This document shows positions 3,538 to 28,943 of a DNA stretch of 46,184 nucleotides, in pieces. The stretch comes from Puniceibacterium antarcticum. Its GTDB lineage: Bacteria; Pseudomonadota; Alphaproteobacteria; Rhodobacterales; Rhodobacteraceae. Under the pieces are notes generated by a model, which was given only the letters and a program-made list of their open reading frames with translations, was not told the DNA's origin and searched no databases. The stretch's first letter is position 1. Each line of letters begins with the position of its first letter. The position numbers were made by a program, and so were the translations under genes. The stretch covers positions 1 through 46,184 of the forward strand of contig NZ_AWWI01000049.1 of the NCBI RefSeq assembly GCF_002760615.1. Direction: 5' to 3'.

Positions 3538-3539
3538 TA

Positions 3540-4380: not shown

Positions 4381-4382
4381 TA

Positions 4383-4615: not shown

Positions 4616-4689
4616 GGCACATGTTGCGGATTTTGGGGCTGGTGCCGACCGTCGAGATGGATTCTGAACACGAACTGTTTCCCTGCACA

Positions 4690-5414: not shown

Positions 5415-5586
5415 TAGTTACGTCTTGCAAGCCATGGCCTTTAGCTGATCCTGTGTTCTTATGGGACAGATCCATCGATATGGGTCCAGCCGAAAAACCG
5501 AAACAATCGCGGCCGGACCTTCTCTGCACAAAGAGGGAGAACTGCAGAGGTACGCAGGCCCGGAACGAGGGCATGTTGGTTGACGA

Positions 5587-8500
5587 TCATCCCGACGCAA
5601 AGAGCCCGCGACGCAAGGCGGCAAGATAGGCCCGTCCGTCTTTTTCGGTGGGCTCAAGGACAGCGCCTTCCGCCCACTCATTCCAGGCATTAACAAAGAC
5701 TAGCGGGGCGGGAAGCTGGCCGTCGCGGTGCTTGCGGATGGCATGCAGGGCAGCCTGCCGCGTCCAGTCCTCGAATTTCCCGGGGGTGGAGCCCACGAGG
5801 ATATTGGCCTGCCGGGCGCGTCGGGGCGAATTGTCCCAGTCCGGACAGATGCCGGGGGCAAGCTTTGGAAAGCTGTCGACCGCCTCAAGGCTCTGTACCG
5901 AGACCTGGTCATAGCTTTCAAAGAAATCTCCGCAGGCCTCGCTCGCCCCAGCAAGGCTTTCGCGGGCAAGCAGCCTGCGTTCAGAGCGCCGCGGAGTGCG
6001 ATGCGGCGGGAACTGGGCAACAAAATCAACAAGCTCTTCCCATTCCGGGCGGAAGTCCGGATTCCAGGTTGTCCCCAGGACCATCTCAAGCCCGAGAGAC
6101 TTGCGCAGACGCTCTCTCAAAAAATGAATCGTCCCCGGGGCGTCCGGCAGTTTGTTGAGCTGGTAGATCATCACCACCGGCTTGTCACCGATCCGGAAAT
6201 ACCGGCTGTCCGCGCTGGCCTCGATCAGATCCTGCGCGAAAAGGGACAGGGTATCCGTGCTGTAATCCTGCCGCAGGATCGCCTCGTGCGTCTTGCCGTC
6301 CCAGGCGCGTGTCCAGTCCTCGTTCGCCCAGCAATAAAAGAAGTTCGGCCCGCCCTCCGGCATCGAGAGCAACCGGTCGGTCACCGCCCCCATCAGCCGC
6401 TCGCTGCCGAAACGGTAGTAATAGACCGCCATGGCCGCGAGACCAAATTCCTGGGCGAGCTGCCCCTGCGCCGCCAGCGTTTCGGCTGTGCGCAGATCAT
6501 AATAGCCAAGCTCGCCAGGAAGACGCGGCTGGGGATGCCCATTATATCTGGGACCGGCCTTGACAACATTGCGCCATTCCGAAAAGCCGGGACCCCAGGC
6601 GCGGTCATTGACTGCAAGCGGATGGAACTGCGGCAGGTAAAAGCCGACCGCCTGGGCACGGGGTTCGTGCCGGCAGGTGAGCGCCGGAAACCAGCTGCGC
6701 GCCAGCCCGAGTGCAGGATGGTCCTGCAGTTCCCGGACTGCCGAGGACAGCCGTTCCGCGCCGTGTTTGCGGACCAGACTTTCCCATCCAGACTGGCTGA
6801 GCACCAGCCGACGTTCGTGGCTGAAGCTTTTTGACTTGGCATGATAGACATAGGTAGACAGCGTGATGCCGCAGGTCATGCCGATATCGGAGAGGCGCAG
6901 GCAATAGTCGTTCTCTTCACCATAGCCCTGCGGGAAGGCCTCCTCATCGAAATAGCCGATCCCATCAATGACCCGGCGTTTGATCGCAAAACAAAAGCCG
7001 TTCACAATCGGGCTTTGATAGACCGCCGCTGCGGGAATGCGCTCGCAGAGGCGCGCCGCCTCGGCTAGCGAGACACCTTCGGGAAGCGCGTTGAGCGCAA
7101 AATCGCCTCTGGAATCCTTGGCAAGAGGCACCGATTGCCAGGTGGCCGCATTGGACAGCGGCCCCACGATCCCGACATCAGGATCGGCTTCGCCCGCCGT
7201 CACCAAAGCCCGCACCCAGCCGGAGGGGACAATCGTGTCGCTGTTGAGAAGGATCACATAATCTGCGCAAGAGGCTTTCAGCCCGGCATTGGCGGATCGC
7301 GTGTAGCCAAGCGCGATATCGTGTCGGATCAGGATGTCAGAGGGGCAGGACACCAGATGCCTTGCAATCACCCGGCGTGTCGCCGGTGCGGAACCGTCAT
7401 CCACGATGAGCATCCGTGTACGACCGTCGCGCGCAAGGCGCGCCGAATGCAGGCAGCGCGCCACATCATCGGGGCTGTTGTGGACGCAGATGACCACATC
7501 TACTCTCAGCTGGTCACTGTCGGGGATCAGCTGGCCGGGCAAGCTTTCGCCCAGTTCGCGCAGAGGGTCGAGATGGGCGTGGCGCGTGCCGCCGTGATCG
7601 AGATAGGCAAAGCGCGGGTCCGCCCGGACCGAAAGCCCCGTGTCGATAAGCGATGTCTTTGCGGCACCGGCCTTCCAGCAGGCATAGTCGAAACTCAGCT
7701 GATCGCGACGGCTGTTGCCCTTGATCTCGCTCCACCAGATATCGAGCGCCTGTCGCGTCTCGGGCCTGCGCAAATCCATCACCATGAAGTTGGTTTCCGT
7801 CAACCCGCCATCATCGGGAAACCCTTCGGTGACATAGCGCGCCTGCTGGGCTCGCATGAGTCCGGGATCGTCCATCCTGTTGTGGATCAGCGCCGAGAGT
7901 TCCTCTGCCACGTTGGCGCGGTAAGGATGGGGCACCACGCCAAACGCCGCCCCGGCCCCGAGCGTCTGCACGATCAGCGGCGTGAGATCCCCCGTTGCGG
8001 CGATGTTTCCGTCGATCCAGACCGCGATATCGCAATCCTCAAGGACAAGATGCGGCTGCGTCTTGTGGCGGCGGGCAGTCCTGATCTGATCAGCTCCCTG
8101 AACCGCCAGGGGCCGCAGATCCCATTGCGCGCTTGGGCTAGACCCGGGTGTATCGGTGAAAAAGACGTAGCGCGCGCCGTCCACCAGGCTCTCGAAGGGA
8201 AGCGATCTCTCATAGCCTGCTGTCGCGCAGGTGAAGAAAGTGATCCTGAGCCCGGCCAAGGCCGGATTGAGCACGCTCGGTACATGGGCCATCTCACCCG
8301 TCTCAAGTCTGCGAAGACAATCAGAGGTATAGCGCGGCCCGTTAAGATAGCTGCGCGACAGCGAATGGGGTTTTTCGGCGCGGATCTGGCGGAAGGTAAA
8401 GCCGCGCCGGGCAGTGGCGAGCGGCAGCATCCGCTCGATGGCATGGGCCAGTGTCCCGTCAACCTGTCCTTCTTCGGCTTCAAACTCCGACAAGGTGAAG

Positions 8501-9375
8501 CCCCCCGCAAGCAGGGGCCGGATGGCCTCCGTCCGAGCGACAAAGAAGGACCCGGCCGGAAATGGGAGCAGGTCGGCTTCCGTTAAGGGGGAGGACTCTG
8601 CCCCAAGAAGCCGCAGCATTTCCTCTGCGACACGCGCGAAATTGCCCCCCCATTTAATCTGCTCGCTAACGCTCGGATGATAGACCGGAAAGGCCAGTCC
8701 AAGGCCGGGGGTATCGGCAAAGAGATTCAGAATCTGGGTGAAATGCGCTTTTGAGTGAAAGAGGTGGTGCCCCAGATGCAGGCCCCAGTCCCGCTTCGCG
8801 GCGGTATGGGCGCTTTTCTTGGAATGGAAATGGACGACAAGGTCATATCCGGCCAGACGCGGCCCAAAGCCGACAACCATCGGGGCGATGTCGCGTCCCC
8901 GGTTGGGCATAAGCTCGACATGAAGGCGCAGGAGACCCGGCAGGCTGCGCAGGGCTGCTTCGCACGGCCCTGCCGCATCCGCCTCGGCGACGCTTACATA
9001 AAGGTCGAAGGGAGCTTCTATCGACGCAAGCCAGATCTGGTACTGAAAGAGCATATCGAGATGGAAAAGATGCAGATGAACGGCCAGCCTGCCCTTAAAC
9101 TGCAGAACAGGGTGCTCCTTCTCTTCAAGGGTAACCGCAGGGCCGCGGTGGCTCGATACGTGTTCGCCCAGGATCTCGAATGACGGCTGCGGTTCTACGT
9201 GGCCTCTGGCTGTCGCGGGACCCTTCGGGCGCCCGATGTGGCGTCCGATGCGGTGCCAGTGTTCTGCCGGACAGAGACCGCTCAGGGCGACGTCGGGGAA
9301 TTGTGCGCCATACCAAGCCGCATCCAGGTCGGGATCAGCGTCAGCCAGAGCAAGGGGTTCAGCTGAATTTTTCAT
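5587..9375 (-). CDS. giant multidomain glycosyltransferase (RgpF / DUF616-like / GT2 / WbsX-like)
   Basis: A 1262-residue protein with four successive glycan-related domains. About 65-370 resembles rhamnan-synthesis protein F (RgpF), with HLFHLDML, MPNRGRDIAP and VVHFHSKKS. About 376-600 resembles the DUF616/TOD1-type glycosyltransferase fold, with ITFFTCATAGYERSLPFE and DCDIAVWIDGN. About 624-870 is a GT2 domain: DVVICVHNSPDDV, VDDGS (658-662), NSD (711-713) and GEENDY (819-824). About 908-1250 resembles WbsX-like transferases: AVGFYLPQFHP, WGPGFSEW, FFYCWANEDWTRAWDG and NAWNEWAEG. There is no signal peptide or membrane segment, so it probably acts at the cytoplasmic face. It likely adds several sugars, rhamnose among them (inference). 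It starts at ATG 9375 without a strong ribosome binding site and is divergent from the 9636 gene. Confidence 0.85.
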   Translation of the reverse strand: MKNSAEPLALADADPDLDAAWYGAQFPDVALSGLCPAEHWHRIGRHIGRPKGPATARGHVEPQPSFEILGEHVSSHRGPAVTLEEKEHPVLQFKGRLAVHLHLFHLDMLFQYQIWLASIEAPFDLYVSVAEADAAGPCEAALRSLPGLLRLHVELMPNRGRDIAPMVVGFGPRLAGYDLVVHFHSKKSAHTAAKRDWGLHLGHHLFHSKAHFTQILNLFADTPGLGLAFPVYHPSVSEQIKWGGNFARVAEEMLRLLGAESSPLTEADLLPFPAGSFFVARTEAIRPLLAGGFTLSEFEAEEGQVDGTLAHAIERMLPLATARRGFTFRQIRAEKPHSLSRSYLNGPRYTSDCLRRLETGEMAHVPSVLNPALAGLRITFFTCATAGYERSLPFESLVDGARYVFFTDTPGSSPSAQWDLRPLAVQGADQIRTARRHKTQPHLVLEDCDIAVWIDGNIAATGDLTPLIVQTLGAGAAFGVVPHPYRANVAEELSALIHNRMDDPGLMRAQQARYVTEGFPDDGGLTETNFMVMDLRRPETRQALDIWWSEIKGNSRRDQLSFDYACWKAGAAKTSLIDTGLSVRADPRFAYLDHGGTRHAHLDPLRELGESLPGQLIPDSDQLRVDVVICVHNSPDDVARCLHSARLARDGRTRMLIVDDGSAPATRRVIARHLVSCPSDILIRHDIALGYTRSANAGLKASCADYVILLNSDTIVPSGWVRALVTAGEADPDVGIVGPLSNAATWQSVPLAKDSRGDFALNALPEGVSLAEAARLCERIPAAAVYQSPIVNGFCFAIKRRVIDGIGYFDEEAFPQGYGEENDYCLRLSDIGMTCGITLSTYVYHAKSKSFSHERRLVLSQSGWESLVRKHGAERLSSAVRELQDHPALGLARSWFPALTCRHEPRAQAVGFYLPQFHPLAVNDRAWGPGFSEWRNVVKAGPRYNGHPQPRLPGELGYYDLRTAETLAAQGQLAQEFGLAAMAVYYYRFGSERLMGAVTDRLLSMPEGGPNFFYCWANEDWTRAWDGKTHEAILRQDYSTDTLSLFAQDLIEASADSRYFRIGDKPVVMIYQLNKLPDAPGTIHFLRERLRKSLGLEMVLGTTWNPDFRPEWEELVDFVAQFPPHRTPRRSERRLLARESLAGASEACGDFFESYDQVSVQSLEAVDSFPKLAPGICPDWDNSPRRARQANILVGSTPGKFEDWTRQAALHAIRKHRDGQLPAPLVFVNAWNEWAEGAVLEPTEKDGRAYLAALRRGLFASG

Positions 9376-9489
9376 TTGGAAATATGCTCATGTCATGGGA
9401 CAGAAATGACCTGAATGTCTGCTTTGTCGACAGTTCGCAGCGGCTGCCAGGGGCGGGTTCGTATTTTCCAGAGATTAGGAATTATCTGG

Positions 9490-9504
9490 TTAACGGGAGA
9501 TTAA
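9490..9504. promoter_or_regulatory. perfect CtrA-type box TTAA-N7-TTAA
   Basis: TTAA CGGGAGA TTAA lies in the 260-bp divergent region between the giant glycosyltransferase (start 9375) and the sulfotransferase gene (start 9636). It matches the full consensus of the alphaproteobacterial response regulator CtrA. Two further TTAACGGG/CTAACGGG half-site-like copies follow at 9516-9523 and 9553-9560. The direction of any effect cannot be read from the sequence. Confidence 0.5.
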
Positions 9505-9635
9505 GAAACATCTGCTTAACGGGCTTGGTGAAGCCAATGTGGTCAGAAGAGCCTAACGGGATTGAAGATTTCAATCTGTCTCGTGCTGATCGGGCACAGA
9601 GCCTGCAACAGGGCGTGACAAGGAGTGACAGGGTA

Positions 9636-11177
9636 ATGGCCAAGACCCCAAAGAGACCCGCCGCGAAACAGGACAAGCGCCGCGTCGCCGTCGTCATCCT
9701 CGGGATGCATCGCTCCGGAACCTCGGCGCTCGGGGGGGTTCTGGCGCAGCTCGGCTGTGATCTGCCTGCAACGCTCATGTCCGCACATGAGACAAACCCC
9801 AAGGGCTTTTTTGAATCCGCCGCGATCTGCCAACTCAATGACGACATCCTGGCTTCGGGCGGATCAGGGTGGAGTGACTGGCAGCCGTTCAACCCGACCT
9901 GGTTTGACTCACCGCGCGCCGAGGAATTTGCCGCACCCGCAGCCGAACTGGTCCACGGCGAATTCGCCAAATCCCATCTTTTCGTGATGAAGGATCCGCG
10001 CATCTGCCGCCTTCTGCCCTTTTGGACGGGGGTGCTTGAGGCGGAAGATGTCCGTCCGGTCGTCGTTCATATCCACCGCAACCCGCTTGACGTGGCAAAC
10101 TCTCTGCGCACACGGGACGGGATGGAAGAGGACCTTGCCCAGCTCATATGGCTGCGCCATGTTCTAAGCGCCGAGCGCGACAGCCGCGGGTTGCCGCGCA
10201 GCTTTCTCTCCTATGACCAGCTGATGCAGAACTGGGCCGGGCTGACAGACCGCATCGCCCGCGACCTCGGGTTGGGATGGCCACGGCTTTCAGCCCGTGC
10301 GGCTGCGGATATCGGCGCCTTTCTCATGCCCGCGCTGCGCCATCATCTGCGGCCAAAAGAACAGCTTCTTGAAAACCCCTTCGCCTCCGAATGGATCCGC
10401 AAGACCTATGCCATTCTGCAGGAATGGGCCGAGGGGGGCGAAAACAGCGCCGACTATCCCAGGCTTGACCAGATCGCGCGGGAATTTGACCACAGCGCGC
10501 CGACCTTTGCCCAGCTGATCGAGACCGGACGTGCCGCGATCAGGACGGTCGGCAAAGCCGAAACCCAGCTTGCCGAGGTAAGGACCGAACTGGGCGCGTG
10601 TCAGAAGGCGCTGGACGACGGGCAGCAGGCGCATGCGGCCCTGACCGAGGAGAAGACGCAGCTTGAAGAGGCGGCCCGTAGAGCAGAGGCGGCGCACCTT
10701 GAGGAAGCCGAGGCTCTAGCCCGGGCCAGCCAGGAGGTCCGGGTACAGCACAACACGATCTCCGAACTGCAGAGCGCGCTTGCACAGCGTCAGCTTGAGG
10801 CCGAAGACTGGATGTCCGCCGCGCGCGCGGCGCAGGCAGCACTGGAAGAGCAGCAGCAAGCGGCGCAGGCAGCACTGGAAGAACAGCAGCAGGCGGCGCA
10901 GGCCCAGAGCGAAAAAGCCCTGGCGCGCAACCGCACCGCCGAGGCCAGCGTCACGCGCCTAACCACGGAAATCGCAGCCTTGTCCAAGATCCTCGTCGCG
11001 GTCGAGAACCGCGAGGCACAGCAGAAAGCCGCCCTTCAGCGCGACCGCGACACGCAGATGGCCGAGGCCGAGGCGGCACGCATCGCATGTGACGCGCTTC
11101 TTGCCAGCACCTCGTGGCGGGTGACTGCACCGCTGCGCCGGATCAGCCGGTGGCTCAGGCCATCCGGGTTTGGTTGA
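9636..11177 (+). CDS. sulfotransferase domain with C-terminal coiled coil
   Basis: 513 residues from ATG 9636, preceded by AAGGAGTGACAGGGTA. The frame is open further upstream, but that part overlaps the divergent gene and looks non-coding. Residues ~15-280 form a sulfotransferase-like domain: the P-loop ILGMHRSGTSALGG (21-34) is a good PAPS 5'-phosphosulfate loop, and VVHIHRNPLDVANSLRTRDG resembles the 3'-phosphate site. Residues ~290-480 are a long Ala/Glu/Gln-rich coiled coil containing an 11-residue tandem repeat. The last ~25 residues (STSWRVTAPLRRISRWLR) match the tail often seen on glycosyltransferases of polysaccharide clusters. It probably sulfates sugars in the nascent polysaccharide, with the coiled coil mediating assembly (inference). 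Confidence 0.75.
   Translation: MAKTPKRPAAKQDKRRVAVVILGMHRSGTSALGGVLAQLGCDLPATLMSAHETNPKGFFESAAICQLNDDILASGGSGWSDWQPFNPTWFDSPRAEEFAAPAAELVHGEFAKSHLFVMKDPRICRLLPFWTGVLEAEDVRPVVVHIHRNPLDVANSLRTRDGMEEDLAQLIWLRHVLSAERDSRGLPRSFLSYDQLMQNWAGLTDRIARDLGLGWPRLSARAAADIGAFLMPALRHHLRPKEQLLENPFASEWIRKTYAILQEWAEGGENSADYPRLDQIAREFDHSAPTFAQLIETGRAAIRTVGKAETQLAEVRTELGACQKALDDGQQAHAALTEEKTQLEEAARRAEAAHLEEAEALARASQEVRVQHNTISELQSALAQRQLEAEDWMSAARAAQAALEEQQQAAQAALEEQQQAAQAQSEKALARNRTAEASVTRLTTEIAALSKILVAVENREAQQKAALQRDRDTQMAEAEAARIACDALLASTSWRVTAPLRRISRWLRPSGFG
10827..10904 (+). repeat. 33-bp in-frame tandem repeat, 2.4 copies
   Basis: Two consecutive 33-bp units (10827-10859 and 10860-10892) plus 12 bp of a third encode AAQAALEEQQQ repeats within the coiled coil of the sulfotransferase-like protein. 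The units differ by two synonymous changes by eye. Length variation here would change the coiled coil by whole turns without breaking the frame. Confidence 0.9.
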
Positions 11178-11219
11178 ACTGAGGTGGTGATGCCCGGCCT
11201 ATCCCTCCCTCGCCCTGAA

Positions 11220-12937: not shown

Positions 12938-15274
12938 ATGACCCAGACCAAACCGCCGCTGATCCTGATCGTAATGGCCGTCTACCGGCCGCAACCGGCG
13001 CATCTGCGCGCGCAGCTGGCCTCGATCGCAGCACAGAGCCATAGAGCCCGTCATCTGGTGGCGGTGATTGCCGACATGCTCTCCGGCGATCTGGTGCGCG
13101 ACCTTGCGGCAGAGCTAGATCTGCCCTGCACCTGCCTGGAAAGCGACACAGATCTCGATGCGGTGCGCGCGGTTGAGGCGGGGCTGGTTCAGGCGCTGGA
13201 CCTGATCCCGGTCCTGACCGCGCCCAGCGATCCTGAACCGCTGATCGCCTTGTCGGATCAGGATGACATCTGGCAGGATGACCGGCTGGCGCGCGGCGTG
13301 GCCGCGCTGTCGAACAAGGGCCTGCAACTGGTGCATTCGGATGCGCGACTGGTGGGGCCGGATGGCTGTGCTGTCTGGCATGCTTCAATGTTCCGGTTTG
13401 AGCGGCGCCATCGCCATCCTAGTCTGCGCGGGCTGCTTTATCGCAACAACATCACCGGCATGACGCTGACCATGCGGGCGCGGGTGGCGCGGGTAGCCCT
13501 GCCTTTTCCGCCGCAGTCCGGCGTGCATTATTATCACGACCTCTGGCTGGGGCTGATCGCTGCGGCCACCGGCGGTGTCGGACTGATCGATGCGAAACTT
13601 GTCGACTACCGCCAGCACGGCACCAATGCCGTTGGCGCTGTGGACCGCCAGAAGGGCTGGCTGCGCGCAGGCAAACGCGCCCTGCCCGATGGCATGTGGA
13701 TCCGCCACGAGGCTGCGGCCTATGCGCTGGCACGCTACCTGGCACACTCCGCTCGAAACCGGATCTCGGATGCGGTAGGGGACGGACGGCTGCCCGCCGG
13801 GGATGCACATCCCGACCCTCTGCGGCCCTATCTGCGCCGCACGTGCGGGATGGGCCAGCATGTCCGCGACAGCGCGAAACTGGCCTTCACGGGCCATCTG
13901 GCGCTGGCGCGCATCGCCGCGGGATTTGCAGTGGTGGCTCTGGGCCGCACCCTTTGGACCCTGCGCGAGGCGCTGGGACCGGGGCTGGACAAGGCGATCA
14001 GCGCTTTCGATACCCGGCTCTATTCGATGTCTCCCGGCCTTTTCCCGAAACCGGCGCGGGACGCCATCGAACAAACCCTGAAGCCACTGGATCACGACAC
14101 GCTGATCGATCTGCGCAAGATCTCCCGCTGGCAGCCCCTCTTCGACGCCCCTGCCCCGGCGCTGACCGTGCTGGTGCCAACGCTGAACCCGACCGAGATC
14201 TTCGCGGGCATCGTCACGGCGCTCGATATCGGGCTGGGGCTGGCGGCGCGCGGGTTCCGAGTGCGCTTTGTCGCGACCGACCTGCCGGTCTCTTCCGTCG
14301 CCGTTTCGCGCAGCTTTGTGCTGAAGCGCTTACCGGGGATCACCCCCGAGGCTGCGGCGCGCATCTCGCTCCACTGCGGCGTACAGGGCCGCACGCTATC
14401 GGCGCACCGGGACGATGTCTTTCTCTCCACCGCCTGGTGGAGTGCGCATCTGGCCGATACGCTGATCCGTGAGCATGGCTACACGCAGGAACGGTTCGTC
14501 TATATCCTCCAGGATTTCGAGCCGAATTTCTACGCCTGGGGACCGGAATATGCCGATGCTATGGCCAGCTACGGATTCGATTTTGAACCGGTGTTCAACA
14601 CCACCCTGCTGCGGGATTACTTTGCGCGTCAGGGCTTTGGCTTTGCCACACCGGACAGGCTGGCGTTTCACCCGGCCATCGACATCGCGCGGTATGCAGC
14701 CGGCGTGCGGCGCGAAACAATCGGCCCGCGCCGCCTGGTGCTGTATGGCCGTCCCGAAGTGGCGCGCAACATGTATACCACCGGGATCGAGGCACTGTCG
14801 CTGTTTATCACAGCCGAAGGTCTGGGCGCGCAGGACATCACCCCCGTCTCGATCGGGCTGCACCACGATCCGGTGCGCCTGCCCGGCGGCGTGCTCCTGG
14901 AAAGTCTGGGCAAACTGCCTTGGGAGGCTTATCCCGGCTATCTGCTAGGCACCGATCTGGGTCTGTCGCTGATGTATTCGCCCCATCCCAGCCATCCGCC
15001 AATAGAAATGGCGGCGTCGGGCGTGCGCGTGGTGACCAACCATTTCCCCCAAAAGGATCTAAGCTTGCTCAGCCCCGCGATCTTGTCTGCAAAGCCCACC
15101 GCCCGAGCTCTGGCGGCAGCGCTGTCGCAGGCTTGGCACAGCGACCCTGTCACGGCTGCCGAACGCGCCATTGACCTTACCTCCATGGGCCTGCCGCTAG
15201 AGGAAATGGTGGACCGTCTGGCAGAACGGCTGACAAGGCTTATGAGAACCGAAGCCCCTGACAATCTGAGGTAG
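12938..15274 (+). CDS. bifunctional glycosyltransferase: GT2 plus WsaF-like rhamnosyltransferase
   Basis: 778 residues, ATG 12938 preceded by CAGGACATGCC. Residues ~8-250 are a GT2 domain of the rhamnosyltransferase type: LIVMAVYRPQPAHLRAQL at the nucleotide-binding strand, LSDQDDIW (105-112) as the metal-binding DxD-like motif, and HYYHDLW (197-203). Residues ~400-765 resemble WsaF/RgpA-type enzymes: LTVLVPTLNP, ILQDFEPNFYAWGPEYADA, a VLYGRPEVARNMY strand, and SLMYSPHPSHPPIEMAASG with the donor-binding Glu. WsaF of Geobacillus is a beta-1,2-rhamnosyltransferase using dTDP-L-rhamnose, which the rml operon here would supply. No membrane segments are seen. The two domains probably add consecutive rhamnoses (inference). 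Confidence 0.82.
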   Translation: MTQTKPPLILIVMAVYRPQPAHLRAQLASIAAQSHRARHLVAVIADMLSGDLVRDLAAELDLPCTCLESDTDLDAVRAVEAGLVQALDLIPVLTAPSDPEPLIALSDQDDIWQDDRLARGVAALSNKGLQLVHSDARLVGPDGCAVWHASMFRFERRHRHPSLRGLLYRNNITGMTLTMRARVARVALPFPPQSGVHYYHDLWLGLIAAATGGVGLIDAKLVDYRQHGTNAVGAVDRQKGWLRAGKRALPDGMWIRHEAAAYALARYLAHSARNRISDAVGDGRLPAGDAHPDPLRPYLRRTCGMGQHVRDSAKLAFTGHLALARIAAGFAVVALGRTLWTLREALGPGLDKAISAFDTRLYSMSPGLFPKPARDAIEQTLKPLDHDTLIDLRKISRWQPLFDAPAPALTVLVPTLNPTEIFAGIVTALDIGLGLAARGFRVRFVATDLPVSSVAVSRSFVLKRLPGITPEAAARISLHCGVQGRTLSAHRDDVFLSTAWWSAHLADTLIREHGYTQERFVYILQDFEPNFYAWGPEYADAMASYGFDFEPVFNTTLLRDYFARQGFGFATPDRLAFHPAIDIARYAAGVRRETIGPRRLVLYGRPEVARNMYTTGIEALSLFITAEGLGAQDITPVSIGLHHDPVRLPGGVLLESLGKLPWEAYPGYLLGTDLGLSLMYSPHPSHPPIEMAASGVRVVTNHFPQKDLSLLSPAILSAKPTARALAAALSQAWHSDPVTAAERAIDLTSMGLPLEEMVDRLAERLTRLMRTEAPDNLR

Positions 15275-15463: not shown

Positions 15464-16150
15464 TCATCGTCCCGACGCGACGCTGTCCGGATGGGGCTGG
15501 CGCATCAGCTCCTGATAAAATGCGATGCCCGCACCCACATCGTCAAAGACCTCCAGCAGACCGGTTTCTAGCACGCAGACCTTGTCGCACATGCGCGAGA
15601 CCTCACCCAGTGAGTGGGTGATCATGATGGAGCCGCTGGTACGCATGCGTTCCCTGAACAACGCCTCGCTCTTGGACTTGAAGACGGCATCGCCCACCGC
15701 CATCACCTCGTCCACCAGATAGGTATCAAAGTGCAACCCCATAGACACGCCAAAAGCCAGGCGCGACAGCATCCCAGAGGAATAGGTCCGAATCGGCAGG
15801 TTAAAATGCTGCCCCAGTTCGGCAAAATCTGCGACAAAATCGGCCAGTTCATCCGTGTCCACGCCATAGACCCGAGCGATGAACCGGGTGTTCTGCAAAC
15901 CTGTCATGTCCCCATTGAAGGATCCCGAAAACCCTACCGGCCAAGAGATTGTTCCAGTCGAGCGGACCTCGCCGCTGTCGGGTTCCATCGCACCGGACAA
16001 CATGCGCATCAGGGTCGATTTGCCGGCGCCATTGCGCCCCAGGATCGCGACCGAGGCACCGGTTGGAAAAACCGCGTTGATATTCTGGGCCACCACCTTA
16101 CGCCGCCCGTTCAGCACAAAGGTCTTGCACAGGTTGCGCATCTCGATCAT
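15464..16150 (-). CDS. kpsT: capsule polysaccharide ABC transporter, ATP-binding protein
   Basis: 228 residues, the usual size for KpsT/BexA/CtrD. Walker A GRNGAGKST (38-46), signature YSSGMLSRL (123-131), Walker B TYLVDE (143-148) and the switch His in ITHSLGEV are present. The short ATPase without a C-terminal carbohydrate-binding domain fits the Kps group and not O-antigen Wzt. It powers export of lipid-linked polysaccharide through KpsM at the inner membrane. ATG 16150 is preceded by GGGAGAC and lies 20 bp after kpsE, so the two form an operon. kpsM is the divergent neighbour. Confidence 0.92.
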   Translation of the reverse strand: MIEMRNLCKTFVLNGRRKVVAQNINAVFPTGASVAILGRNGAGKSTLMRMLSGAMEPDSGEVRSTGTISWPVGFSGSFNGDMTGLQNTRFIARVYGVDTDELADFVADFAELGQHFNLPIRTYSSGMLSRLAFGVSMGLHFDTYLVDEVMAVGDAVFKSKSEALFRERMRTSGSIMITHSLGEVSRMCDKVCVLETGLLEVFDDVGAGIAFYQELMRQPHPDSVASGR

Positions 16151-16170
16151 CTGCCCGTCTCCCTAGCCGA

Positions 16171-17406
16171 TCAACGTCTGTCGCGCAGCGAATAATATAT
16201 CATCGTCCCGATCGACCAAGAGATCAGCAGAAATCCCCCGATGATGGCCATCAACACGAAGCGGCGGGGATATTGAGCCGTCTCGGCCCGGGTCGGTGCC
16301 ACGTAGCTTGCAAGATAGCGCGACTGGCGCTGCGCCTTGGCCACAGCGGCATTGCGCGCCGCCAGCGCCGCGAGGAAACTCTTCTCGGCAAACTCACGAT
16401 CCACCTCAAGCGACTCGTATTCTTCCAGCAGGGTGGAATAGGCGGCGTCGCCGACATCGACCGAGGCCCCTACCCCGGCAATATCCGTCCCAACGCCGCC
16501 GAACTGACTTCGCTCTTCGGCGATCTGCTTGCGGATCGCAGCGATGCGCCCGTCAAGTTGGGTCACCCGTGGATCATTCGTGCTGGTGGCGCCGTCCAGA
16601 AGAGTTTGGCGGGCCACTAGCCCTGCGGCAAGCTGGTTCTGAAGCGCATTGACCACGCCCATCTGACCTTGGATATCAGCCTTGGGATCGATAATCCCGG
16701 TACGATTGCGAAAGGCTGTCGTGGCCTGACGGGCTGTCTTGAGTCGTTCCTGAGCGCGCGCCAGCTCTTCTTCGGTATAGCGCATGACATCGGCTCGTGC
16801 GATGGCTGAGAGTTGATTGATCATCGCGCTGCTCTCGTCAAAGATCGCTGCCGCCACCGCCGTTGCATCAACCGGGTCAAAGGCCAGAACACGCACCTCT
16901 ATAAGCCCTGAACCGCGATCATAAAACACCCGGACCATGCGTTGCCAGTATTTTGCCAACGCCTCGATCCGCGCATCCTCGCCCAAAGCAAAGACCGGAT
17001 CATCTGGGACGATATAGATGTCGCGCAGGCCCAACCGAGCGTTTACGGCGCGTACCATCTGCTGGCTCTGGATATATTCATACAGGATATCAGTATCCGA
17101 AGAGGAGGAGCCCGAAAGCTCGGTAAGCCCGCCCAGAAACCCAAGCGACGATCCGACCTCCTCTGTGCGGACAGAAAAACCGACCTTGCTGGCATATTGA
17201 TCCTTGGCGAAGGCAAACAGATACCAGCCTGTTGCCGCAAGCGGGATCATCACCCAGAGCAGAAAGGTCAGCATCAGGATCCGGTGGCGCCGACGGACGC
17301 GCGCGGGGCCAGCGCCGACGCGAACGACGGACAGTGGCCCGTTCTGGGGACTGCCCTGCGGACTGGTCGCCGGAATGCCGTCCAGACCCTGTGTTGCATG
17401 TTTCAA
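16171..17406 (-). CDS. kpsE: capsule polysaccharide export inner-membrane protein
   Basis: 411 residues of the KpsE/BexC/CtrB (polysaccharide co-polymerase) type. It has a basic N-terminus, a membrane helix at ~43-66 (ILMLTFLLWVMIPLAATGWY), a long periplasmic region with coiled coil (~200-250 and 275-360), and a second helix at ~384-405 (VLMAIIGGFLLISWSIGTMI) before a short basic tail. It links the KpsMT transporter to an outer-membrane channel. The start is TTG 17406, supported by AAAGAGG 7 bases upstream; the next Met (residue 45) lies inside the first helix and cannot be the start. The ~40-residue Pro/Gly-rich N-terminus is longer than usual. Confidence 0.88.
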   Translation of the reverse strand: MKHATQGLDGIPATSPQGSPQNGPLSVVRVGAGPARVRRRHRILMLTFLLWVMIPLAATGWYLFAFAKDQYASKVGFSVRTEEVGSSLGFLGGLTELSGSSSSDTDILYEYIQSQQMVRAVNARLGLRDIYIVPDDPVFALGEDARIEALAKYWQRMVRVFYDRGSGLIEVRVLAFDPVDATAVAAAIFDESSAMINQLSAIARADVMRYTEEELARAQERLKTARQATTAFRNRTGIIDPKADIQGQMGVVNALQNQLAAGLVARQTLLDGATSTNDPRVTQLDGRIAAIRKQIAEERSQFGGVGTDIAGVGASVDVGDAAYSTLLEEYESLEVDREFAEKSFLAALAARNAAVAKAQRQSRYLASYVAPTRAETAQYPRRFVLMAIIGGFLLISWSIGTMIYYSLRDRR

Positions 17407-17447
17407 AATCGGCCTCTTTCAGCTGCGCCACGGGGGTCGCCCGCGCG

Positions 17448-17488
17448 TTAAGCAATTATTATCAGACCGCGCATTAATAATTTCTTAG
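17448..17488. promoter_or_regulatory. two near-consensus CtrA-like boxes between kpsE and kpsM
   Basis: In the 110-bp divergent promoter region, TTAA-GCAATTA-TTAT (17448-17462) and TTAA-TAATTTC-TTAG (17474-17488) each differ by one base from TTAA-N7-TTAA. The region is AT-rich and chance matches are more likely than at 9490, so this is weak evidence. Confidence 0.3.
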
Positions 17489-17516
17489 CGATGCTAAAGA
17501 GAGGCCGTCCTCTGCC

Positions 17517-18335
17517 ATGACACGATCTGTCCCCTTCCAGCTGCCGTCCCGGCCAGCACGTCCACCACACCGCCGGTTCGTGACGCTGCGCGTGATCGTG
17601 GCGCTAATGCTGCGCGAGATGTCCACCACCTATGGCAGCTCGGCGCTGGGATATCTCTGGGCCATTATGGAACCCGTTCTCGGCATCCTGCTGATGACCC
17701 TGATCTTTTCCTTCACCTTCAACGCCCCCAGCCTTGGCACCAGCTTTGCGCTGTTCTTTGCCTCGGGGATTATGCCGTTCATGGCCTACATGGATATATC
17801 GAGTAAAGTGGCCTACTCGCTCAGGTTTTCCAGCAAGCTTCTATTCTATCCGGGTGTGACTTTTGTCGATGCGATGATCGCGCGGACCCTGCTCAATGCG
17901 ATGACGCAGTTTCTGATCTCAGGTTTGGTCTTTTCCGGTATTCTGGTAGCCTATGACATCGATGTGATCTTGGACATTCCGGAGATCGCACTTGGCTTTT
18001 CCATGGCGCTGTCTCTGGCCGTATCTGTAGGAACGCTGAACTGTTACCTGCTGTCGCTCTATCCGATCTGGGAACGGATATGGGCGATCCTGAACCGGCC
18101 GATGTTCATGGTGTCCTGCGTGCTGTTCACCTTTGACACCGTTCCCATGCCCTATCGCGACTGGCTGTGGTGGAATCCGCTGGTACATGTGATCGGCCAG
18201 ATGCGCGGCGGAATCTATGCCACCTATGACAACAGCTATGTCTCACCGCTCTATGTGTTTGGCCTCTCTCTGACCCTATTGGCGCCGGGGCTGCTGCTTC
18301 TACGCCGCCATTACCGCAACATCATCAACATCTGA
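17517..18335 (+). CDS. kpsM: capsule polysaccharide ABC transporter, permease
   Basis: 272 residues with six predicted membrane helices in the ABC-2 arrangement. The N-terminus has LRVIVALMLREMSTTYGSSA followed by LGYLWAIMEPVLGILLMTLI, the KpsM/BexB signature. The C-terminus has WWNPLVHVIGQMRGGIYA before the last helix and RRHYRNIINI tail. It forms the inner-membrane channel for polysaccharide with KpsT. It is transcribed divergently from kpsE-kpsT and converges on parB, with an 83-bp gap containing two palindromes. ATG 17517 is the only plausible start. Confidence 0.93.
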   Translation: MTRSVPFQLPSRPARPPHRRFVTLRVIVALMLREMSTTYGSSALGYLWAIMEPVLGILLMTLIFSFTFNAPSLGTSFALFFASGIMPFMAYMDISSKVAYSLRFSSKLLFYPGVTFVDAMIARTLLNAMTQFLISGLVFSGILVAYDIDVILDIPEIALGFSMALSLAVSVGTLNCYLLSLYPIWERIWAILNRPMFMVSCVLFTFDTVPMPYRDWLWWNPLVHVIGQMRGGIYATYDNSYVSPLYVFGLSLTLLAPGLLLLRRHYRNIINI

Positions 18336-18418: not shown

Positions 18419-19516
18419 TTAAATCACCCCCCGCAGCCACTGCGTCAGCGACAGGCGCAGATCCTCGTTCAGGCCCGGGCCTGACAGGGTCAGCGCCCCA
18501 TCAGAATGCCGTTGCAACCACAGACCCGGCACGATCTCTTCGCCCGCACCCTTTGAGGGAATGCCCTGTGGTACAGTCTGTGGCACCACAGGGGCAGCTG
18601 GGACCGGGGCGGGCGGCGGGGGCATAACCCGTGCCTGAGGCGTCACAGGTGCCGCCTCAGGGGCACGCGAGGCGGGCTCTTGAGGTGTAGGCTGCGGCAT
18701 CAGCGCGATCTGGATCAGCCTCTGTTCCGCCTCGGGCGTTTCGGGCGGTTCAGCAGCGAGCGCCTGCATGAGGCGCCGAGCAATATCAAGATCGTCCTCA
18801 AGCGCGCGCGACAGAGTCAGGCCGGTGCGTTCGGCCAGCGCCTCGGGAAAGCGCAGGACACCATCCATCACCTCGACGATCCCCAGAAAGCTGCCGATCT
18901 TGGAGCGCTTCGCGCGGGAGGCCGCGTGAAACAGCTGCTGCAGCGCCGTTTTGCGGCTGTCAAAGACCCCCTGTTCCACCGACTTCAGCACGATACGGGC
19001 ACGCTCGTAATAGCTGAGACCCACCCGGATCTCGTTCTCCTCGACCATCGCGAGATAGGCGTCCGAGGCCTGATCGGGCCGGCGCAGCAGCGCCAGCACC
19101 TGGGTAAACCGCACCTCGCCCGTCTCATCGGCCAGCTGGCGCAACGCCTGACAGCGCCGCCAGCCCGAAATCAGCCCGTAACGCCCCCCGCCCAGATCAG
19201 CGACCTCGACCGGGGTCTGCTGGCCACGTATGCGCAGCGACGCCTTCAGCGTCTCCATTTCTGCATCATCAACTGCCACACGGTCGCGCACCAGATAGCC
19301 GATGTCGATCCCCTCCAGCGGCAGGCTCAGGACCATGCGGCCCTCTGTGCGTGCCCGGGTCAGAGTATCGGCCATCTCCTCGAAGGCGGCCGAGTTGGAG
19401 GCCGCGCGGGCCACATCAGCGATCGGGGCTGACCGGGTGAACATGCCTGCCACTTGCGCCGCGGGATCCTCCATATAGACAGGGTTTGCCGGGGTCAGGC
19501 GTTTGCGCTTGGCCAT
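18419..19516 (-). CDS. parB: plasmid partition protein ParB
   Basis: 365 residues. ATG 19516 has AAGGAG about 8 bases upstream; the upstream frame to 19582 overlaps parA and is not needed. The ParB/Spo0J N-terminal domain shows LRIRGQQTPVEV and YGLISGWRRCQALRQL (the arginine-rich CTP-binding patch region). A middle HTH region follows around YYERARIVLKSVEQGVFDSR and KRSKIGSFLGIV. A Pro/Ala-rich linker (about residues 255-315) precedes a C-terminal segment. It binds centromere-like sites, possibly the palindromes at 18380-18415, and works with ParA. It forms an operon with parA (34-bp gap). Confidence 0.9.
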   Translation of the reverse strand: MAKRKRLTPANPVYMEDPAAQVAGMFTRSAPIADVARAASNSAAFEEMADTLTRARTEGRMVLSLPLEGIDIGYLVRDRVAVDDAEMETLKASLRIRGQQTPVEVADLGGGRYGLISGWRRCQALRQLADETGEVRFTQVLALLRRPDQASDAYLAMVEENEIRVGLSYYERARIVLKSVEQGVFDSRKTALQQLFHAASRAKRSKIGSFLGIVEVMDGVLRFPEALAERTGLTLSRALEDDLDIARRLMQALAAEPPETPEAEQRLIQIALMPQPTPQEPASRAPEAAPVTPQARVMPPPPAPVPAAPVVPQTVPQGIPSKGAGEEIVPGLWLQRHSDGALTLSGPGLNEDLRLSLTQWLRGVI

Positions 19517-19550
19517 CACAGGGCTCCTTGTATCTGGTGGTGCAGGGGGC

Positions 19551-20942
19551 TCATTCTGCAGCCTCCTCAGCGCTGAGCGCATCGCGCCGCCAAGCCCCGA
19601 TCAGCAACTGCTTGAAGGCGGCATAGGTCGCGTCAAATGTTTCGCGACCGCGCACATAGGTCTCTCGGTTGAAGTCGCGGTAATCCGCCTCGTAGATGCC
19701 CTGCACTTGCTCGCTGGCCTGTCCGATCAGTGCGGTGAAATCCTGCCGGTGCGGCGACAGGGTCTGGCCGAGGTACGCCTGCATCAGCGCGGCAAGCTCG
19801 GCCTGCTGGCTGCCGTCATAGCGCGTGACCACGGCCCGCACCGCGTCCCACTGAAACGACAACTCGTCGCGCCCCAGCGCCCGAGCGGCTATGTTTTCGG
19901 CCTCTTCAATACTGGAAAAAGTCGAATGCAACATGTCAAAGAACCGTCCGGTGGAGTCAAATTCAAGGAACGATGCCCCCAGCGGCACTAGCAGGATATC
20001 CGCCGCCGCCAGCCCGTTGATGGTGAGATATCCAAGCGCGGGCGGCGTGTCGAGAAAGACCACATCGTACTGATCGAGGATCCCGTCCGCATCCAGCATC
20101 TCGGTCAGGGCATCCCAAAGCTTCCAGCCACGTCCGGACATGCGCCAGACGGGAATCTGGAACTCGGCCCAGTAGAGGTTCAGCTGCGCGCCGATCAGGT
20201 CGATATTCGGCCAGTGGGTTTTATGAATGAGGCTCTGCGCCTTGACCTCTAGAGCATCCGAAAGCGTGTCATCCAGCGGCAGCGGTGCCTCGCCCCGGTC
20301 AAGCCTGCGCTGGTTTTCCCCGCGCAGGTGCAGCGCGTAATGGCGCGCGAGCAGCGGGAAGACGGTTTGCCATTCGTCGCGCACTTTACCGCCAAAGATC
20401 GAGGTCATCGAACCTTGTGAGTCGAGGTCGATCACCAGCACTTTGTAGCCATCGAGGGCGGCGGACATCGCGAGATGTGCGGCGGTACTCGTCTTGCCCA
20501 CGCCCCCCTTGAAGTTGGCCACAGCCACCATCTTGGCCGGCAGGCCCTTGGGACGGTAAGGAAGATACTCCTTGGCCTTGGAACCTTCGATGCCGAAATG
20601 TGCGCGCAGGCGCAGCACCTCGTCGAGTGTGAACCACTTGGCACCGCCATCTGTTTCGCTGCGCCCTTGTGGCAGGTCGGGGTGTTGTTTTAGCACCCGG
20701 CGGAAATGTCCTGTGGCCACGGGTATGAGATAGCGGGTGATTTCCCAAGTCGAGAACAGTCGCAGGCTACGCCCGCCGCCGCCCTCAAGACCGCGCGAAG
20801 CGAGATCAGACCGCCCGGCCTCACATGCCCGAGCGATAGCACCGAACCCCTTGGTTGAGGCAGGCTCACCCAGATGGCTCAGGGCAGCGTCCGGATCGAT
20901 GTTGAAATAGGGAGGCAGCTGCCCCCGCGCGTTGGATTTCAT
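19551..20942 (-). CDS. parA: plasmid partition ATPase ParA
   Basis: 463 residues from ATG 20942, with AAGGA about 9 bases upstream; a GTG one codon earlier is possible. The deviant Walker A KGGVGKT (145-151) sits in VAVANFKGGVGKTSTAAHLA. IDLDSQGSMTSIF follows, and Walker B is VVFLDTPPALGYLTI (about 294-308). The ~135-residue N-terminal extension with a MerR-like segment (WFTLDEVLRLRAHFGIEG) marks a type Ia ParA that also represses its own promoter. It drives plasmid segregation with ParB. It is divergent from repA across the origin, the arrangement of roseobacter RepA-type plasmids. Confidence 0.93.
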   Translation of the reverse strand: MKSNARGQLPPYFNIDPDAALSHLGEPASTKGFGAIARACEAGRSDLASRGLEGGGGRSLRLFSTWEITRYLIPVATGHFRRVLKQHPDLPQGRSETDGGAKWFTLDEVLRLRAHFGIEGSKAKEYLPYRPKGLPAKMVAVANFKGGVGKTSTAAHLAMSAALDGYKVLVIDLDSQGSMTSIFGGKVRDEWQTVFPLLARHYALHLRGENQRRLDRGEAPLPLDDTLSDALEVKAQSLIHKTHWPNIDLIGAQLNLYWAEFQIPVWRMSGRGWKLWDALTEMLDADGILDQYDVVFLDTPPALGYLTINGLAAADILLVPLGASFLEFDSTGRFFDMLHSTFSSIEEAENIAARALGRDELSFQWDAVRAVVTRYDGSQQAELAALMQAYLGQTLSPHRQDFTALIGQASEQVQGIYEADYRDFNRETYVRGRETFDATYAAFKQLLIGAWRRDALSAEEAAE

Positions 20943-21234
20943 CACTGCAGGTCCTTATAAATCCTGAGGTATCTTTGCCCAAGTCTGAGTGTTTTTTGGA
21001 GAATGTACGCCCTTTATGTTCTGATACCATAAAAAGGCTTACATTAAAGAAAAACCCGCATACGCTGTAATTTTTCAAGCAAATTCAATGATAAAATCTT
21101 GTCAGATGCCAACATGTCAGGCCCCTTTTCGGAAGAGCCAAGTTATTTTTTGTTAGTATATATGTTACGAGAAAAATTGTGCTCTTACTAAATCCCTATT
21201 TTCAAAGGCTTGAGAAAAATTTAGCCATCATTGG

Positions 21235-21288
21235 TGACTCTGATCCCCCGTTAGGCTGACTCTGATCCCCCGACAAGGCGACTCTGAT
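21235..21288 (+). repeat. iterons: three GACTCTGAT repeats at 22-bp spacing
   Basis: TGACTCTGATCCCCCG occurs at 21235-21250 and 21257-21272. A partial third copy, GACTCTGAT, lies at 21280-21288. Starts are 22 bp apart, about two helical turns, as expected for initiator-binding iterons on one DNA face. They lie upstream of repA. Confidence 0.75.
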
Positions 21289-21324
21289 ACATGGATCGCA
21301 GCGCACCCTGCGCTGGACGCATGA

Positions 21325-21333
21325 TGTGGATAA
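21325..21333 (-). promoter_or_regulatory. perfect DnaA box
   Basis: TGTGGATAA, the complement of the consensus TTATCCACA, lies 37 bp after the last iteron and 102 bp before the repA start. It supports DnaA participation at the origin. Confidence 0.65.
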
Positions 21334-21434
21334 CTCTAGGGTAGGTGTCACTGAAACCCCGATAGCGGAATAGCGCGAATAACCGGGGGCAGGCACAGCG
21401 GCAGAGCAGTCGTAGGACAGACGAGGGCAGGCAG

Positions 21435-22466
21435 ATGGCCGGATCAGATATGATCCCGGGTGCGGACGGGGGCAGTCTTTTGCCTGACCGGTATCCGGCA
21501 GAAGACTTCTTTGTCTGCGACATGTTTGGGGCGAGCCCCAAGGATGACCTCGGCTCGATGGAGCATCCGATCTTTTCGCTGAGCACCAGGCCCGACAGGC
21601 GGGTGCTTAGTTATGAGCACAATGGCTTGCAGATCGAGGTCACCCCGTCGGTCAAGGGCCGCGCCACAATCCATGACAAGGATGTGCTGATCTATTGCGT
21701 GAGCCAGCTGATGGCCGGGCTGAACGCGGGCCGCGCGATCAGCCGCACGCTGAACCTGAAAGCGCATGACCTTCTGGTGGCCACCAACCGCGACACATCC
21801 GGTGATGCCTATACCCGGCTCAAGGAAGCCTTTGAGCGGCTGGCCGGTACGCGCATCACCACCAATATCACCACCGGCGGCCAGGAGACGACGCGCGGTT
21901 TTGGTCTGATTGAGAGTTGGGAGATTGTGCGTCGCTCACGTGGCGGGCGGATGATCAGCGTGACTGTTACCCTGTCGGACTGGCTGTTCCGCGCGGTGCT
22001 GGGCCGCTCGGTGCTGACGCTCAGCAGGGTGTATTTTCACCTGCGCAAACCGCTGGAACGGCGGGTCTATGAACTCGCCCGCAAGCATTGCGGCCGCCAG
22101 TCCGGCTGGACGGTGTCTGTGGCGGTGCTGCACAAGAAATCCGGATCCACTGCGCCGGTGCGGGTGTTTCGCGCTGCGATCCGTCGCATGATCCAGGATG
22201 CCCATCTGCCCGATTACACCATGACGGAAAAGGACGGCGATCTGATCCTGTTCGAACGCGCCGGTGCGGTGACAGAGACCCGCGGCGCGCCGGTGCTGAA
22301 ACCCGACACGCTTGAGGCCGCACGCGAACTCGCTCCCGGTGCGGATGTCTATATGCTGCAGGCGGTCTGGCAGGAGTGGTGGGTTAACACCGGGCGCCCG
22401 CGGCTGGGCAATGCCGATGCGGCTTTCCTCGGCTGGGTAAGGGCGCGGGAAAAATCCTCGCGCTAG
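21435..22466 (+). CDS. repA: plasmid replication initiator RepA (RPA family)
   Basis: 343 residues, ATG 21435 with GAGGGCAGGCAG upstream. It matches the replication initiator protein A family (Pfam RPA) of alphaproteobacterial plasmids: FFVCDMFGASPKDDLGSMEHPIFSL near the N-terminus, DKDVLIYCVSQL, TNRDTSGDAYTRLKEAFERL and RVYFHLRKPLERRVYELARKHCG. Winged-helix folds bind iterons and open the origin. It is divergent from parAB. Its stop codon lies exactly at the left end of the IS630 element: the TA of the stop is the target duplication, and the original stop was TAA (now TAG). The protein is therefore unchanged. Confidence 0.92.
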   Translation: MAGSDMIPGADGGSLLPDRYPAEDFFVCDMFGASPKDDLGSMEHPIFSLSTRPDRRVLSYEHNGLQIEVTPSVKGRATIHDKDVLIYCVSQLMAGLNAGRAISRTLNLKAHDLLVATNRDTSGDAYTRLKEAFERLAGTRITTNITTGGQETTRGFGLIESWEIVRRSRGGRMISVTVTLSDWLFRAVLGRSVLTLSRVYFHLRKPLERRVYELARKHCGRQSGWTVSVAVLHKKSGSTAPVRVFRAAIRRMIQDAHLPDYTMTEKDGDLILFERAGAVTETRGAPVLKPDTLEAARELAPGADVYMLQAVWQEWWVNTGRPRLGNADAAFLGWVRAREKSSR

Positions 22467-28385: not shown

Positions 28386-28940
28386 TTGCAGATTGAACAG
28401 ACCTCCCTTTCCGGTGTCGTTATTCTGACCCCCGCCCGCCATGGCGATGCACGTGGCTTCTTTTCCGAAAGCTGGAATGCGCAGCGCATGGCCGAGGCAG
28501 GTCTGGACTATGCCTTTGTGCAGGACAATCATTCGCTGTCGGCCCAGGGCGGCACGGTGCGCGGGCTGCATTTTCAGGCGCCGCCCCATGCCCAGGCGAA
28601 ACTGGTGCGCTGCGGGCGCGGCGTGCTGTTCGATGTGGCGGTGGACATCCGACGCGGATCGCCCACCTACGGGCAGTGGGTCGGGGTCGAGCTGAGTTTT
28701 CAGACTGGCCGACAGCTGCTGATTCCCGCAGGTTTCCTGCATGGTTTCATCACACGGGCGGCGGATACCGAAATCGTCTATAAATGCACCGATTATTATG
28801 CGCCTGATTGTGACGGCGCGGTGCGCTGGGACAGCTGCGGCATCGACTGGGGTTTTGAGGAAATGCCTGTCCTGTCGGACAAGGACGCCCGCGCCCCCGC
28901 GCTTGCGGATTTCGAGTCACCCTTTGTCTGGGAGGGCTGA
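28386..28940 (+). CDS. rmlC: dTDP-4-dehydrorhamnose 3,5-epimerase
   Basis: 184 residues, cupin fold, normal length. The start is TTG 28386, with AAGAGG about 6 bases upstream; no ATG fits before the conserved MQIEQTSLSGVVILTP N-terminus. Catalytic and substrate residues are visible: the base His62 in GTVRGLHFQAPP, DNHS, PAGFLHGF and the Tyr132 proton donor in VYKCTDYY. It converts dTDP-4-keto-6-deoxyglucose to the L-lyxo form, the third step of dTDP-L-rhamnose synthesis. First gene of rmlCBDA; rmlB follows after 3 bp. A small inverted repeat, GGCAA-CAC-TTGCC (28341-28353), lies in its upstream region. Confidence 0.95.
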   Translation: MQIEQTSLSGVVILTPARHGDARGFFSESWNAQRMAEAGLDYAFVQDNHSLSAQGGTVRGLHFQAPPHAQAKLVRCGRGVLFDVAVDIRRGSPTYGQWVGVELSFQTGRQLLIPAGFLHGFITRAADTEIVYKCTDYYAPDCDGAVRWDSCGIDWGFEEMPVLSDKDARAPALADFESPFVWEG

Positions 28941-28943
28941 GCA

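Follow-up and report, generated by a model that had tools for sequence, protein, structure and literature searches.

The 46,184-base stretch of Puniceibacterium antarcticum DNA analysed here (hereafter the window), which is one whole contig (NZ_AWWI01000049.1), carries a gene, P0001, that fuses four glycan-active domains in a single chain. P0001 is real, intact and rare, and it is a new combination of modules already known. We consider it reasonably probable that its product is a soluble cytoplasmic multi-module enzyme, composed of three GT-A-like modules and one GH99-like module, which would act on a surface polysaccharide that is still being made, ahead of its Kps-type ATP-binding cassette (ABC) export.

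P0001 is one intact open reading frame (ORF) of 1262 amino acids (aa) on the minus strand, running from an ATG at 9375 to a stop at 5587 with no internal stop; the initial annotation gave no strand. The plus strand of the gene is broken by stops in register, and its inner ORFs reach at most 483 aa; the homology of 5587-9375 is to the minus strand and not to these plus-strand ORFs. The gene is divided as follows.

5587..9375, minus strand: whole gene, RgpF-TOD1-GT2-WbsX fusion (ORF and Pfam)
9100..9375, minus strand: aa 1-92, N-terminal stretch holding the motif WYxxxFPDVAxxG...H
8404..9099, minus strand: RgpF-type domain, aa 93-324 (Pfam, motifs and AlphaFold model)
7576..8262, minus strand: TOD1/MUCI70 (DUF616) domain, about aa 372-600 (Pfam, motifs and AlphaFold model)
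6691..7512, minus strand: GT2 domain, about aa 622-895 (Pfam, motifs and AlphaFold model)
5617..6648, minus strand: WbsX domain, GH99-like, aa 910-1253 (Pfam and profile search)

In the whole protein, Pfam gave the order RgpF, TOD1/DUF616, GT2 and WbsX, which confirmed the initial annotation of four domains in one chain, the TOD1 member being divergent. Scores were above the cut-offs for RgpF (PF05045; E 3.9e-36, 125.2 bits against 25, aa 93-324), GT2 (PF00535; E 2.5e-18, 67 bits against 23.3, aa 627-738) and WbsX (PF14307; E 9.5e-92, 308.6 bits against 25.1, profile positions 2-349 of 350). The TOD1_MUCI70 match (PF04765) was below its cut-off of 21.4 bits in the whole protein (E 0.0029, 17.4 bits) and above it when the segment was excised (22.3 bits), and all 16 members of the TOD1 alignment, P0001 included, matched this profile at E ≤ 0.01. 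Of the four independent domain hits looked for, three were thus above their cut-offs in the whole protein, and that of TOD1 in the excised segment. The motif in aa 1-92 is weakly common to the N-termini of other glycosyltransferase-type proteins. Since the top 19-residue mean of hydropathy is 1.44, a membrane helix is not apparent in P0001.

Conserved columns were defined as those with the same residue in at least 85% of relatives (reference rows: RgpF 34, TOD1 22, GT2 103 and WbsX 110), the reference excluding P0001 and the broken copy L134 and Shinella locus described below. P0001 keeps 30 of 39 such columns in RgpF, including N158/G160/R161/D162 and D306/E314/R315, 34 of 42 in TOD1, including D455/N457, H483-P484-R486 and R557-D558-Q559, all 19 in GT2, including N711/D713, E820/D823 and H845, and 73 of 86 in WbsX. 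Motifs retained are NRGRD (8890-8904; NxGRD in the family), HxK and DGTxAH..ER in RgpF, the DxN of WIDGN (8005-8013), HPxR and RDQ in TOD1, and NSD (DxD-type, 7237-7245) and GEEND in GT2. Departures from the family residues include D402R (TOD1) and K182H, R191T, G194K and R198G (RgpF). The conserved motif residues are kept in all four domains, in agreement with the earlier expectation of intact active sites; in RgpF and TOD1 the catalytic residues are putative assignments from conservation.

The RgpF, TOD1 and GT2 modules of P0001 look like GT-A transferases. When the sequence profiles of RgpF and TOD1 were searched against PDB sequences, no useful match was found. An AlphaFold model of both modules (m636a6026230f, aa 60-615; mean predicted local distance difference test (pLDDT) score 80.1, predicted template modelling (pTM) score 0.62) had as its first solved matches the tandem GT-A polymerases K4CP (chondroitin polymerase, E 1.5e-8) and PmHS2 (heparosan synthase 2, E 1.4e-7); later matches included GT-A enzymes of ABO and UGGT type. 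In the model of the other two modules (m816bd83d8319, aa 612-1262; mean pLDDT 77.9, pTM 0.66), the GT2 half matched ppGalNAc-transferases. The top two viral structure matches of this second model (5590-7542) were from Mimiviridae sp. ChoanoV1 and Indivirus, with template modelling (TM) scores by query of 0.49 and 0.44 and root-mean-square deviations (rmsd) of 28 and 17 Å, respectively; they align across most of the GT2-WbsX part, so the pair may occur in giant viruses too.

WbsX is named a transferase in Pfam and GH99-like in plasmid annotation. In sequence it appears to be nearest, weakly, to the GH99 endo-mannosidases, the ExxE pair included. When the WbsX profile was searched against 177,635 PDB sequences, the top two, 5lyr/5m03 (E 0.0069) and 4ad1 (E 0.0095), were both GH99 enzymes, and the alignment runs through NEWAEG in WbsX and NEWHEG, which holds the catalytic pair, in GH99. 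Two papers give the GH99 catalytic pair as ExxE (PMC12394665) and the catalytic motif as EW[H/G]E (PMC11025385). In P0001 the pair is E1233/E1236 (5668-5679), and E1233, E1236 and E1241 are each invariant in 110 of the 110 counted WbsX relatives. P0001 WbsX shares the ExxE pair and flanking sequence with the GH99 endo-alpha-1,2-mannosidases/mannanases BxGH99 and BtGH99; unlike them, it has EWAE, has no H[I/L]EPY motif and is fused to transferases. Of the 113 WbsX rows, P0001 counted, 90 others are joined to a GT-type domain in one chain, whereas none was seen for 22, in a sample biased by a GT-containing query and by the shortness of some loci. A stand-alone 378-aa WbsX of the P0001 subfamily lies at 9956-11089 on the plus strand of an Ensifer adhaerens locus (L038), directly after a 1482-aa ORF; it is a convenient single-domain protein for assays.

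The P0001 domain order is also found in plasmid pgSHIWSC3 of Shinella sp. WSC3-e (WP_272809421), and in WSD5-1, as a 1240-aa frame annotated as a GH99-like domain-containing protein within a capsule ABC-export cluster. Because this plasmid is independent and complete, the architecture of P0001 is not an assembly join. The Shinella protein is 56% identical to P0001 in WbsX and 48% in RgpF, and these two modules retain the conserved positions as well as P0001 does (WbsX 74 of 86 and RgpF 30 of 39). In the middle modules, TOD1 keeps 14 of 42 (28 lost) and GT2 3 of 19 (16 lost); WIDGN has become WISPN, LNSDT has become IATGT and GEEND is gone. The GT2 segment is 24% identical to that of P0001, inside the 19-35% range of 30 shuffles, so that its homology rests on position, the BLAST run-in and a weak profile match (10.9 bits). 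The Shinella TOD1 and GT2 modules thus look degenerate. Since the middle looks degenerate and the outer modules have been kept, the outer modules appear to be maintained without the inner ones, which suggests that the parts are separately usable; as this is the sole unbroken full-length relative found, four active sites do not seem obligatory. Another copy of the four-domain gene, split into at least three ORFs, lies on the minus strand at 1498-5467 of locus L134, in genome G1307 of family f174, and keeps 33 of 42 conserved positions in TOD1, 18 of 19 in GT2 and 75 of 86 in WbsX.

The four-domain order is rare: outside P0001, the matches listed show it in just two plasmid records of Shinella and in a single broken copy from a genome. 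Among 72,556 plasmid records, two, both from Shinella, cover at least 80% of P0001. No other genome had the order among the matches listed from overlapping sets of 295 (the P. antarcticum genome included), 5, 385 and 398 genomes, and among those listed from 297 genomes of family f174 there was one, the broken copy in G1307. Scoring covered no more than two candidates for each genome of the 295-, 385-, 398- and 297-genome sets, with capped lists; the E-value cut was 1e-20 for the set of five and 1e-60 for the sets of 385, 398 and 297. The initial annotation had suggested looking for the same architecture beside sulfotransferases in other roseobacter plasmids. This was not found, both records of at least 80% coverage being from Shinella; the 28 features displayed near one of these records include no named sulfotransferase. 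The two-domain RgpF-WbsX sibling does have sulfotransferases nearby in C. sphaeroides pA, but the 24 features displayed from a Tritonibacter plasmid, which span 31 of its 58 kb, include none so named. Neither a report of this four-domain architecture nor an assay of WbsX was found among the Creative Commons-licensed PMC papers listed.

The domains had been described as known apart or in smaller sets, and two-domain combinations are indeed common among P0001-like loci. Among the ORFs of the first 117 loci, which were picked by similarity to P0001, there were 37 GT2-WbsX, 18 RgpF-WbsX, 18 TOD1-GT2 and four WbsX-RgpF architectures; domain scanning was limited to fetched loci, and one set of relatives was the best 80 of 584. 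RgpF-WbsX proteins of Rhodobacteraceae plasmids, such as WP_011836245 of C. sphaeroides (Cereibacter) 2.4.1 pA, have the outer modules as in P0001 without TOD1-GT2, and the C. sphaeroides records match roughly half of P0001 at about 34-35% identity. TOD1-GT2 proteins, known here from Microvirga, Hoeflea, Devosia and Blastopirellula among others, correspond to the middle pair, with at most 41% identity in the best segment (aa 376-894); an RgpF or WbsX match was found in none of the 18 ORFs, and some of these proteins are much longer, with further stretches besides the pair. In GT2-WbsX proteins (Rhodospirillales and others; 38 loci among the best 80 of 584), GT2 adjoins WbsX and is of another lineage. 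Two minus-strand f174 loci, L136 (265-3654) and L137 (256-3609), encode RgpF-TOD1 fusions with another C-terminus, the last 400 or so residues of which matched none of the four domain profiles.

The origin of the modules was examined in quick IQ-TREE trees, which used 42 of 113 rows for WbsX and 44 of 107 rows for GT2, the Shinella GT2 remnant being excluded. Placement of the P0001 GT2, with that of L134, among the GT2-WbsX proteins was rejected (p-AU 1.9e-91) and placement with the TOD1-GT2 proteins was allowed (p 0.316). The GT2 of P0001 clearly belongs to the TOD1-GT2 lineage, a group that in this tree includes a few plain GT2 rows and is joined by a long branch, L077, with a tool warning. 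The WbsX modules of P0001, Shinella, G1307 and L038 formed one group with support of 100, and its wider placement was allowed both with RgpF-WbsX (p 0.665) and with GT2-WbsX proteins (p 0.283). The RgpF modules of P0001 and Shinella were sister to those of L136/L137 (support 98); keeping P0001, Shinella and the RgpF-WbsX proteins apart from L136/L137 was rejected (p 0.001), as was a grouping of P0001 and Shinella with the WbsX-RgpF proteins (p 0.0013). The TOD1 tree gave no firm placement of P0001, owing to the great length of the Shinella row. A splicing of the TOD1-GT2 pair inside an RgpF-WbsX protein, taken from FastTree placements, was backed by IQ-TREE in part only, namely in the GT2 ancestry. 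Judged from these relatives, the chain is built from pre-existing modules; the gene would have formed through fusion of ready-made parts, with TOD1-GT2 travelling as a pair.

P0001 lies in a polysaccharide cluster of plasmid type, the main features of which are as follows.

9384..11177, plus strand: sulfotransferase-like neighbour, divergent (ORF listed from 9180)
12938..15274, plus strand: separate glycosyltransferase with a weakly GT2-like N-terminus and WsaF domains
15464-16150, minus strand: ABC ATPase of a capsule-type exporter (profile match)
16171-17406, minus strand: BexC/CtrB/KpsE-like exporter protein (profile match)
17517-18335, plus strand: KpsM-like permease (profile match)
18419..22466, mixed strands: plasmid partition/replication group, with weak ParB-like (minus) and ParA-like (minus) genes and an RPA replication initiator
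21435-22466, plus strand: RPA replication initiator (PF10134, E 1.5e-96)
28386..31722, plus strand: rmlC, rmlB, rmlD and rmlA for dTDP-rhamnose (profile matches)

The first in-frame ATG of the sulfotransferase-like gene past the start of the fusion gene is at 9384; its Sulfotransfer_3 match scored 22.9 bits, under the cut-off of 27, and most of its listed relatives are annotated as sulfotransferases. The NCBIfam scores of the capsule-type exporter (15464..18335) were under the model cut-offs. In the partition group, ParA matched AAA_31 (E 5.4e-30) and the ParB_N match was weak (E 0.0087) and under its cut-off. Terminal overlap of the contig ends was not found at eight lengths of 20-141 bases. 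We take PF10134 to be the RepA-I replicase class. A complete rhamnose operon beside an RPA replicase and ParA, with ParB matching weakly, is as in the RepA-I rhamnose 'biofilm' plasmids. PMC4148953 describes a RepA-I replicon of Leisingera nanhaiensis with a rhamnose operon and mostly polysaccharide genes, and PMC9044938 describes rhamnose operons as a feature of roseobacter 'biofilm plasmids'. The cluster has other glycosyltransferases (31667-32668 and 32863-34098) besides that at 12938-15274; GT2- and GT4-type genes and a ManC-type enzyme are encoded within the window. A cassette of this kind, made up of rml genes, an ABC exporter and nearby sulfotransferases, is also present on C. sphaeroides 2.4.1 pA, where the RgpF-WbsX protein comes directly after the permease. 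Roseovarius faecimaris pMME07001 has the WsaF-exporter gene order seen here, and a GH99-like protein was not named among its 34 features shown.

Other parts of the window were also noted. Between the sulfotransferase-like and WsaF genes lies a 585-aa ORF (11184-12941, plus strand) with no Pfam or NCBIfam match. A second export group at 34155-43640 comprises Poly_export/SLBB, a PrsT-like TPR protein, an AAA_22 ATPase, a Wzz-type protein and a CbiA-type ATPase, and resembles the XrtA-type exopolysaccharide clusters; it is present in addition to the Kps-type set. Transposase genes or pieces flank the cassette (330-1211, 3818-4366 and 27041-27625) and are a possible route of module shuffling.

For the function of P0001, we infer its cytoplasmic site, its sugar donors, its action before export and the chemistry of WbsX. 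The protein would be soluble and cytoplasmic, and would act on the growing polysaccharide ahead of Kps-type ABC export. The RgpF-type, TOD1 and GT2 modules would each add one sugar from a nucleotide donor, probably rhamnose for at least one of them, and the ExxE pair of WbsX may act on an alpha-linked glycan, by cutting or trimming or by transfer. Polymerases with several glycosyltransferases that work ahead of ABC export are established, as PMC11231755 describes for WbdA and WbbB. K4CP, PmHS2, WbdA and WbbB resemble P0001 in having several transferase modules per chain; they differ in that their GT families are others and their activity is proven, whereas P0001 is known by sequence. None of these four proteins is known to have a GH99-like module, and such an end module is the unusual part of P0001.

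Several points weigh against this proposal. No activity is known for P0001 or its full-length relatives. The RgpF match spans only profile positions 268-501 of 503, that is, the second half. The pTM of both models is only 0.62-0.66, LH3, COLGALT1 and LARGE1 are also among the matches of the RgpF and TOD1 model, and the matches of K4CP/PmHS2 type have TM scores of 0.21-0.26 by query (first seven) with an rmsd of about 20-25 Å, so that the model speaks for two consecutive GT-A domains and not for a shared arrangement. The E-values to GH99 are weak and summed over three pieces, the best of which is insignificant alone (i-E 3.3-3.4), and no GH99 entry is among the 50 structure matches shown for the GT2 and WbsX model. 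Moreover, none of the 113 WbsX rows has the H[I/L]EPY motif of GH99 and just 11 have EW[H/G]E, P0001 having EWAE; WbsX is therefore classed as GH99-like and not as GH99.

The initial annotation regarded the chain as a possible one-protein assembly line that adds several sugars for the repeat unit. Addition of several sugars is plausible for three modules; WbsX is GH99-like rather than similar to nucleotide-sugar transferases, so that four transferases are not proven. For the entire repeat unit the proposal was not supported in that form, since with other glycosyltransferases in the cluster P0001 need not make all of it. These enzymes are candidates for backbone synthesis, and P0001 might then decorate or terminate chains, by side branches, capping or length trimming, rather than build the backbone, which we regard as somewhat unlikely. 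A glycosidase-like end module suits trimming, and a glycosyltransferase terminator and a polymerase share one chain in K. pneumoniae O12 (PMC11231755), but neither role is directly evidenced for P0001, and the RgpF-WbsX sibling beside exporter genes in pA fits any late step.

It is less likely still that each of the four modules is a transferase and adds its sugar in turn, P0001 being the repeat-unit assembly line and WbsX a transferase on a glycosidase-type fold. The frequent chaining of WbsX to GT-type domains (the 90 rows of the biased sample above) agrees with this idea. In PMC13391952, the authors infer an altered O-antigen from wbsX mutations in phage-resistant Burkholderia gladioli, which fit a role of the namesake in glycan synthesis and are silent on its chemistry. 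GT108 transferases share a glycosidase/phosphorylase fold with GH130 (PMC8950772), and chlorovirus A111/114R is proposed to combine three different transferases in a single chain (PMC7826918). However, the nearest enzymes to WbsX, weak as the match is, are GH99 hydrolases with their catalytic pair, the cluster has its other glycosyltransferases, and the Shinella protein is kept despite two degenerate-looking modules. That only RgpF and WbsX do the work, TOD1 and GT2 being acquired extras heading to decay, would suit the Shinella counts, its shuffle-level GT2 identity and the sub-threshold TOD1 of P0001, but is improbable given the DxN, NSD and EEND residues kept in P0001 and the GT2 and TOD1 positions that are mostly kept both in P0001 and in the broken copy.

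Within the preferred reading of a multi-module enzyme acting before export, we tentatively suggest that WbsX could be a working GH99-like module in a cytoplasmic polymerase, so that one polypeptide might build a glycan and also cut or re-join it, with a module set switchable through gain or silencing of TOD1-GT2. If true, this would mean built-in editing, length setting, or a class of transferases built on a barrel of GH99 type, perhaps by way of the 1,2-anhydro-sugar chemistry known from GH99. P0001 and the Shinella protein form a natural pair, with a common order and common outer modules, the middle being intact in P0001 and degenerate-looking in Shinella. A comparison of their products would separate the roles of RgpF and WbsX from the additions of TOD1 and GT2. 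Many surface-polysaccharide proteins have a WbsX domain, and P0001 makes the question of what this domain does testable.

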